Position numbers and translations under genes: made by a program
Shown: piece by piece, positions 16,185 to 17,289 of the stretch
How the letters are laid out: each line of letters starts with the position of its first letter
Position numbering within the stretch: position 1 is the stretch's first letter
NCBI GenBank assembly: GCA_035544955.1
Contig: DASZZN010000033.1
Location: forward strand, 203,329-243,977
Source of the DNA: Candidatus Dormiibacterota bacterium
GTDB taxonomy: Bacteria > Chloroflexota > Dormibacteria > CF-121
DNA: 40,649 nt
Reading direction: 5' to 3'
The notes under the pieces: generated by a model
What the model was told of the DNA's origin: nothing
Database searches by the model: none
Seen by the model: the letters and a program-made list of their open reading frames with translations, nothing else

Positions 16185-16397
16185 TCACTCTGCCTTTCTG
16201 ACGATTCGTCCACGCCCCGGATCGAGCGGTGACACCTCGACGCGGACGCGGTCACCCGGGATCACCCGGAGAAACCGAAGCCGCGCGGCCGGCGCCACGT
16301 GAGCGACGATCCTGTGGCCGGTCTCGAGCTCGACACGGTAGAGCGCGTTGGGCATCGGCTCCACCACTCGTCCGACGACAATCCCCGTCATCAGCAA
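16185..16397 (-). CDS. infA: Translation initiation factor IF-1 (divergent)
   Basis: IF-1 occupies the ribosomal A site during initiation. The product is an OB fold with recognisable blocks: VVEPMPNALYRVELETGHRIVAHV, IPGDRVRVEVSPLDPGRGRIVRK. Two features are odd. The usual N-terminal lead (like MAKEDxIE) is missing, and the strongly conserved basic loop GKMRKNYIR is replaced by APAARLRFLR. The frame opens at TTG 16397; the ATG at 16391 is likelier and gives 68 residues. Position between map and rpmJ is standard, which supports the identity despite the divergence. A structured 120-base leader lies upstream. Confidence 0.92.
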   Translation of the reverse strand: MLMTGIVVGRVVEPMPNALYRVELETGHRIVAHVAPAARLRFLRVIPGDRVRVEVSPLDPGRGRIVRKAE

Positions 16398-16413
16398 ATA
16401 CCCATGACGAGAT

Positions 16414-16429
16414 CGCCGGATTTCCGGCG
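16414..16429 (-). promoter_or_regulatory. Hairpin just upstream of infA
   Basis: CGCCGG (16414-16419) and CCGGCG (16424-16429) form a six-pair stem, or seven with the inner A-T, around a short AT loop, ending about 17-23 bases before the infA start. No U-tract follows, so it is more likely an mRNA leader structure than a terminator. Confidence 0.4.
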
Positions 16430-16440
16430 CACGAACGAAT

Positions 16441-16468
16441 AGCTTACCACAAGATCGGCAGGGCTAAA
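16441..16468 (-). promoter_or_regulatory. Weak candidate promoter inside the map-infA gap
   Basis: On the minus strand TTTAGC (16468-16463) and TAAGCT (16446-16441) are 16 bases apart. The -10 fits TANNNT; the -35 matches the consensus at only three of six positions. It would allow infA-rpmJ-rpsM-rpsK-rpsD-rpoA-rplQ-truA-rplM-rpsI to be transcribed apart from the upstream genes. Confidence 0.28.
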
Positions 16469-16471
16469 CGG

Positions 16472-16491
16472 CCCCCACCCTACCCTCCCCC
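16472..16491 (-). other. G-quadruplex motif on the coding strand between map and infA
   Basis: The minus strand, which is the mRNA sense here, has four G-runs with one- or two-base loops: GGGGG-A-GGG-TA-GGG-T-GGGGG. This meets the standard G3+ with short-loop rule for an intramolecular quadruplex, in DNA or in the polycistronic RNA. It lies 28 bases after the map stop codon, in the only large gap of the ribosomal cluster. It could pause polymerase, protect or process mRNA, or take part in initiation at infA; none of this is shown. Confidence 0.7.
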
Positions 16492-16518
16492 GCAACTGGG
16501 GCAGGGACTGGCAATCCC

Positions 16519-17289
16519 TCATTGGCGCGCCGGGAGGGCCTTCTTCGAGACCGTCAGGATCTCGGGCCCGTCTGCGGTGATCGCCACCGAGTGTTCAAAG
16601 TAGGCGGACCAGAGGCCGTCGACTGTGACCACCGTCCAGCCATCATTCAAGAGGGCCACATCGGGCCCGCCGGCGTTCACCATCGGCTCGATCGCGAGCA
16701 CCATCCCCGGCTTCAGTAGGGGCCCCGTGCCGGCGACGCCGAAATTGGGGACCTGGGGGTCCTCGTGCATGTCTCGGCCGATGCCGTGCCCAACAAACGA
16801 CCGGACGACGGAAAAGCCGGCCTGCTCGACGTGCCGCTGGACGGCGGCGCTGATGTCGCCGATCCGGTTGCCGACGCGGGCCTGGTCGATCCCGATGCTC
16901 AGGGACTCTCGCGTGACGTCCATCAGCCGCTGCGCCTCGGCCGAGATCTTGCCGATGCCGACGGTGAGGCCGGCATCCGCCCAGAAGCCCCGGTGGATCA
17001 GGCCGGCGTCCAGGCTCAGGAGGTCGCCCTCGCGGAGCTTGCGGTTGGAGGGGATGCCATGGACGACGTGGTTATTCACGGAGGTGCAGATGGCGTTCTG
17101 GTACCCCTGGTAGCCGATGAACCCGGGGATACAGTCGCGCCCCCGGATGAAGCGATTCGCCTCGCGGTCCAGCTCGAGCAGGGTGACGCCGGGCCGCGCC
17201 ATCGACTGCAGGTGGGCGAGGGCCTCGCCCAGGATGGCGCCCGCCTCCCGCATCAAGTCGATCTCGGCCGGCGACTTGTAGATGATCAT
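16519..17289 (-). CDS. map: Methionine aminopeptidase type I
   Basis: Map removes the initiator methionine from new proteins. The product of 256 residues carries the five metal ligands in their motifs: Asp in LSLDAG, Asp in FWADAGLTV, His in GHGIGRDMHEDP, Glu in AIEPMV, Glu in YFEHSVAI. The frame is open much farther upstream, but the ATG at 17289 (MIIYKSPAEIDLMREAG) gives the proper N-terminus and overlaps the adk stop by four bases. The adk-map-infA order is typical of the spc/alpha region. Confidence 0.97.
   Translation of the reverse strand: MIIYKSPAEIDLMREAGAILGEALAHLQSMARPGVTLLELDREANRFIRGRDCIPGFIGYQGYQNAICTSVNNHVVHGIPSNRKLREGDLLSLDAGLIHRGFWADAGLTVGIGKISAEAQRLMDVTRESLSIGIDQARVGNRIGDISAAVQRHVEQAGFSVVRSFVGHGIGRDMHEDPQVPNFGVAGTGPLLKPGMVLAIEPMVNAGGPDVALLNDGWTVVTVDGLWSAYFEHSVAITADGPEILTVSKKALPARQ

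Follow-up and report, generated by a model that had tools for sequence, protein, structure and literature searches.

The window, a 40,649-nucleotide stretch of the genome of a Candidatus Dormiibacterota bacterium (Chloroflexota), carries a ribosomal gene cluster in which map and infA are separated by a gap of about 127 nt, the largest junction of the cluster (coordinates from the ORF list, off which the other junctions were also read). The coding strand here is the minus strand. An earlier sequence-only reading had seen in this gap a four-run G motif, an inverted repeat, a candidate promoter and a hairpin, and proposed that they form a control or processing point setting the ratio of the two operon halves. 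The elements themselves are present: GGGGGAGGGTAGGGTGGGGG lies exactly at 16491-16472 of the minus strand, the AGGGA/TCCCT repeat is found as AGGGATTGCCAGTCCCT at 16519-16503, TTTAGC-16 nt-TAAGCT at 16468-16441, and CGCCGG-AAAT-CCGGCG at 16429-16414. To that list are added the dispersed-repeat nature of the G-rich element, a second hairpin (16411-16384) and a GTG ORF (16432-16391). The gap is composed of two unrelated parts, a copy of a G-rich repeat and, downstream, a conserved infA promoter and mRNA leader. Its features, in the order of transcription, are as follows:

16519 to 17289, minus strand: map (methionine aminopeptidase), 5' of the gap, identified by ORF translation, with relatives found by protein search
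16521 to 16519, minus strand: map stop codon
16503 to 16519, minus strand: AGGGA/TCCCT inverted repeat, located at the stop of map and not conserved; the repeat element starts with its 3' half
16471 to 16506, minus strand: dispersed G-rich repeat, CCCTGCCCC-AGTTGC-GGGGGAGGG-TA-GGGTGGGGG(C)
16472 to 16491, minus strand: four G-runs, equivalent to strands two and three of the repeat
16463 to 16468, minus strand: -35-like TTTAGC, weak, 16 nt from the -10; relatives keep only nTT, and that partly
16441 to 16451, minus strand: extended -10 TGTGGTAAGCT, kept in genus and family
16430 to 16432, minus strand: GTG, predicted mRNA 5' end and leaderless start codon, 8 nt past the -10 hexamer in 18 of 18 genomes
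16391 to 16432, minus strand: short ORF GTG...TGA (MRRKSGDLVMGIC), whose stop overlaps the infA start (TGATG)
16414 to 16429, minus strand: hairpin 1, CGCCGG/CCGGCG, with an invariant stem, lying within the short ORF at codons 2-7
16384 to 16411, minus strand: hairpin 2, CTCGTCAT...ATGACGGG, predicted to sequester infA codons 1-3; covaries
16185 to 16391, minus strand: infA, operonic divergent IF1 paralogue

The infA of the window is regarded as a divergent paralogue because a second infA, nearer to canonical IF1 (86.7 versus 61.7 bits), is found elsewhere in the genome (G000:C29:101658-101849, in L225). Most genomes of the class yield two infA matches.

The G-rich repeat adjoining map

Within the window, GGGGGAGGGTAGGGTGGGGG is the sole site of its kind, 0.01 being expected from shuffles. 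In the genome, it is part of a repeat with about 100 copies, built from a pyrimidine arm (CCCTGCCCC), a purine arm (GGGGGAGGG) and a third strand (GGGTGGGGG). When the gap was searched against its own genome (52 contigs, 3.67 Mb in total), 27 further matches were obtained, each of them to 16507-16467 or a portion of that interval, and a 60-nt query gave 43 match rows. Pattern searches tolerating up to two mismatches counted 63 copies with a TA spacer and 44 with a TNA spacer, two sets that may overlap slightly, and none with the reversed control pattern; an E. coli-type consensus with GAGAGGG had recovered only 2 copies before the local consensus gave these counts. Taken together, the copies have a consensus close to TTTCCCTCCCCCGCTTGCGGGGGAGGGTAGGGTGGGGGC, and the family occurs in 15 of 15 genus genomes. 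Among 30 copies, 17 are intergenic, 6 lie at a gene edge and 7 inside predicted ORFs, as judged by rough codon-model ORF calls. One copy adjoins the second infA (at about L225:1459-1492).

The layout of the repeat fits that of the BoxC/PIT/TM intrastrand-triplex motif. Class II of the ITxF rules describes a pyrimidine arm, a purine arm and a third purine strand, with a stem of 6-15, at most one mismatch above 7, and loops of 1-6 nt; the element at 16471-16506 can be written as nine triplets with one mismatch and loops of 6 and 2 nt, and it is multicopy, as the class II motif has to be. It shares with the TM/BoxC/PIT motif of Holder et al. 2015 (PMC4666352) the order of the strands, the G.GC and T.AT triplets, and the multicopy character. 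It differs from it in consensus, TTTCCCTCCCCCGCTTGCGGGGGAGGGTAGGGTGGGGGC here and CCCTCKCCCC...GGGGAGAGGGTTAGGGTGAGGGG in E. coli, and in host, a Chloroflexota MAG, Chloroflexi being unmentioned in the main text of that study. The E. coli copies are always intergenic (PMC4666352).

The G-quadruplex, together with the hairpins of the gap, had been proposed as the control or processing point. The exactness of the motif and its low chance expectation in the window speak for such a role, as does the ability of G-rich triplex motifs to fold and to block polymerase in vitro (PMC4666352). However, the G-runs are not kept at the orthologous site: in the closest relatives (L035-L037) no G-rich repeat is found in the gap, hence conservation does not mark the quadruplex as a control element, and the proposal is largely refuted. 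Furthermore, the roughly 100 copies stand at unrelated genes, the E. coli motif is reported to be devoid of promoter or terminator activity, and NMR on it favoured the triplex over the quadruplex (PMC4666352). A role of the G-quadruplex as the control or processing point is considered highly improbable. The inverted repeat at the map stop is not conserved in relatives either.

In four other genomes (L041, L043, L044 and L045), the C-terminus of map reads through a copy of the repeat (PLVGEGQGGG or similar). Since the repeat is missing in some relatives and read through by map in others, its presence at this position varies from genome to genome. The element is proposed to be an insertion unrelated to the infA leader.

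The promoter and structured leader of infA

The gap was aligned across 18 genomes of the genus and family; the relatives named here are Chloroflexi MAGs. The alignment is variable until about -61 from infA, and then turns into a near-fixed block, TNTGGTANNNT, 8 nt, GTGCGCCGG NNNN CCGGCGA. Identity within the genus reaches 0.96 in the 30-nt bin from -60 to -31, as compared to 0.51-0.61 just upstream. The strongly conserved promoter and leader span 16451 to 16384 of the minus strand. The proposal of a control point at infA therefore stands in part: each of the 17-18 genus and family genomes compared keeps the extended -10 along with two hairpins, CGCCGG/CCGGCG and that over the start codon. The anatomy of the gap suggests translational control at the infA start codon combined with an internal promoter, and it is not a processing point setting the ratio of the operon halves that this anatomy appears to favour.

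The 54 nt starting at the GTG are predicted, in the window sequence, to fold into two hairpins (z = -4.7, 0 of 200 shuffles), and the consensus fold of the alignment consists likewise of hairpins 1 and 2. Folded individually, 18 of 18 relatives form both hairpins, with z from -2.0 to -8.0; this includes L042, which carries a duplication. In 17 family genomes, a covariance model gives a single strong copy of the leader apiece, located at infA (61-82 bits), and its matches elsewhere in those genomes are weak and scattered (up to 32.7 bits). Searches of the window with Rfam returned no match at the gathering threshold, with only sub-threshold chance matches nearby, and the known Rfam ribosomal-operon leaders gave no covariance-model match at family threshold in the window.

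The sequence of hairpin 1 is invariant, and consequently neither supports nor opposes its stem. Taking both helices, 97.2% of the alignment cells are paired, versus 92.4% in shuffled alignments (0 of 500 reaching the observed value) and 27-51% when the helices are slid; 15 cells are changed on both sides versus 3.8 in shuffles. The covariation score is 0.328 versus 0.216 for both helices, and 0.507 versus 0.337 for hairpin 2 alone (0 of 500 in each case). As the relatedness of the genomes inflates the significance of shuffled controls, the slid controls and the events on a tree are reported as well. By parsimony on a tree of the flanking genes, the six core pairs of hairpin 2 have undergone about 21 substitutions and zero breaks, pair-preserving changes that link infA codons 1-3 to the upstream arm. 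The tree holds four double changes that restore or keep a pair and 32 one-sided changes that keep one; two events tagged as "double" by the script end in A-A and are counted as breaks. Breaks are confined to the two outermost pairs and the small inner stem. Residues 2 and 3 of the infA protein vary, and the upstream arm of hairpin 2 changes along with them. The pairing of hairpin 2 with the infA start region is thus well supported, on the basis of 18 leaders from one family, all genomes being MAGs.

A leader devoid of dedicated regulation would also carry an internal promoter and some structure, the ribosomes of infA melting the hairpin and the pairing being a by-product of GC-richness. Indeed, the starts of rpsK, rpsJ and rplB in this GC-rich cluster are predicted to be paired as well, so that the pairing of the infA start is in itself no evidence; the covariation is. 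The by-product view is nevertheless quite improbable, given that the covariation exceeds both shuffled and slid controls, that the core pairs are unbroken, and that the folding z goes down to -8.

The 3' arm of hairpin 1 (approximately 16412-16420, minus strand) can alternatively pair with infA codons 5-7 (approximately 16371-16379) via UCCGGCGAU/GUCGUCGGA. This alternative fold has a near-equal computed energy and shows no covariation; a switch between the two pairings is possible.

The short ORF and translation of infA

The distance between the -10 hexamer and the GTG is exactly 8 nt in 18 of 18 genomes. The ORF that starts at this GTG is 13-15 codons long, out of frame with infA, and in 17 of the 18 genomes its stop overlaps an infA start codon, which is the arrangement expected of a leaderless 5'-uORF. 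Counted from the infA start, the stop occupies one of three positions, -2, +1 or +4. In the +4 group (L038, L039 and L067), two possible infA starts adjoin each other, and it is the second that the stop overlaps. The remaining genome, L042, has a 10-nt duplication that shifts the frame of the ORF and ends it 19 nt upstream of infA. The codons of the ORF display no excess of third-position variation among the aligned genus and family leaders, indicating that the peptide sequence is not selected. A crude test found no Shine-Dalgarno match upstream of infA, nor upstream of several other genes.

The same spacing is encountered in a sister family, f3 (L051-L062, L146-L162 and L208-L219). There, TTC-GTG is located 8 nt from a TACAAT-like -10 (TA...T) in 31 of 31 cases, and the GTG is the start of infA itself, in frame in 29. 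The infA gene of f3 appears to be leaderless, since the same GTG at the same -10 spacing serves as its start. From the spacing conserved in 18 of 18 genomes here and in 31 of 31 cases in f3, we infer that the mRNA of the window begins at or next to the GTG at 16432. Leaderless genes with a TA-like -10 near their start have been reported in bacteria, including some Chloroflexi (PMC3160421).

In another family, f4, a five-codon GTG ORF (MRPSP, for example) overlaps the infA start by ATGA, GTGA or TTGA in most members; it is carried by L054, L145, L157, L163-L169, L201, L203 and L205, and not by L200 and L202. Homology of this mini-ORF to the control of the infA leader is not claimed.

We infer that the short ORF is translated, that reinitiation follows and that infA is regulated thereby. 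RNA polymerase would use the extended -10 TGTGGTAAGCT and begin transcription at the GTG that follows after 8 nt, or right beside it. Ribosomes would initiate in a leaderless manner on this 5'-terminal GTG and translate the 13-15 codons up to the infA start. Hairpin 2, in which infA codons 1-3 pair with codons 8-10 of the short ORF, would keep the SD-less start closed until the translating ribosome unfolds it and terminates on the infA start, permitting reinitiation. On transcripts reading through from map, infA would stay closed because the GTG is not at the 5' end. Such a coupling of infA to initiation at the 5' end of its mRNA, through the opening of hairpin 2 by leaderless-uORF translation, is the reading towards which we lean slightly. 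It draws on the 8-nt spacing, the overlap of the ORF stop, the homology with f3 and the covariation of the hairpin, and is weakened by the frameshift in L042, the unselected peptide, the pairing of other starts and the competing fold of hairpin 1.

Its main rival sees in the two hairpins a regulator-binding site or a thermosensor-like lock on infA, responding to IF1, a ribosomal protein or temperature, the translation of the short ORF being uninvolved and the GTG being kept as initially transcribed sequence or as the context of a 5' hairpin. The stems are indeed kept in 18 of 18 genomes, including L042, where the ORF frame is broken, the sequence of hairpin 1 is invariant, the peptide is not under selection, and the synonymous conservation reaches into infA. 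This last feature is pronounced: at four-fold sites, infA is 0.88 identical within the genus (relatives L034-L046, L067 and L086), as compared to 0.57-0.58 for map, rpsM and rpsK, and 0.74 for rpmJ. The near-frozen stretch covers about codons 4-62 and includes the rare codons AGG27 and TCA54; families f3 and f4 show a weaker freeze, and f2 shows none. However, a regulator or thermosensor leaves unexplained the overlap of the leader-frame stop with the infA start, maintained in 17 of 18 genomes through three stop positions, as well as the homology of the GTG with the leaderless infA start of f3. We hold it to be somewhat unlikely.

Two other origins of the synonymous freeze were considered. An overlapping gene was rejected, no alternative frame being free of stops in all genomes. 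A larger RNA structure running through infA, as drawn by alifold, is not claimed either: its pairs are mostly invariant and no covariation is seen past hairpin 2.

The leaderless-uORF coupling may be taken one step further. The uORF and the start hairpin might together sense how initiation stands in the ribosome pool (initiation factors, free 70S, initiator tRNA) and thereby control IF1 synthesis; infA could then be expressed from its leaderless transcript alone, read-through mRNA being unable to yield it. In vitro, leaderless translation is stimulated by IF1 and IF2 and inhibited by IF3 (reviewed in PMC9031893). Initiation factors thus affect leaderless translation, making a link between the initiation state and IF1 synthesis conceivable, with either sign. 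The sensor is a speculative and unlikely extension; if true, the frozen synonymous sites of infA would belong to the same RNA.

Comparison with known leaders

To our knowledge, little is understood of how IF1 synthesis is controlled, and natural cases in which a defined, covarying start hairpin is coupled to a leaderless uORF are rare. The infA leader would join the known leaderless-uORF and translational-coupling leaders as an RNA leader family without an Rfam match. Family f3, with the GTG as the infA start, would then display the evolutionary step by which a start codon became a uORF. If the coupling holds, leaderless initiation and the amount of an initiation factor would be directly connected.

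In erm-type translational attenuation, the translation of a leader-peptide ORF unmasks a start sequestered in a hairpin. The infA leader would resemble it, translation of the upstream ORF unmasking the sequestered start; it would differ by its leaderless start and its termination-reinitiation overlap, and no antibiotic stalling is suggested here. The mycobacterial polycysteine attenuators (Canestrari et al. 2020, as described where PMC9031893 cites it) are similar in that a leaderless short ORF controls a downstream gene of the operon, a control that is conjectural in our case. Compared with what that citing text conveys of them, the present leader has no cysteine run, possesses a conserved hairpin covering the start, belongs to a distant phylum and would control infA.

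The E. coli 5'-uAUG mRNAs (Beck, Fleming and Janssen 2016, PMC4965119) would share with it a start triplet at the 5' end, a position that is predicted for the infA leader, and the triplet opens a short out-of-frame ORF, with a stop near or overlapping the downstream start. According to the sections of that report drawn upon here, these uORFs span 5-26 codons and knocking out the 5'-uAUG alters downstream expression for some genes (PMC4965119). In contrast to them, the infA leader combines a GTG as the uORF start, the lack of a downstream Shine-Dalgarno sequence, a covarying start hairpin and a gene for an initiation factor.
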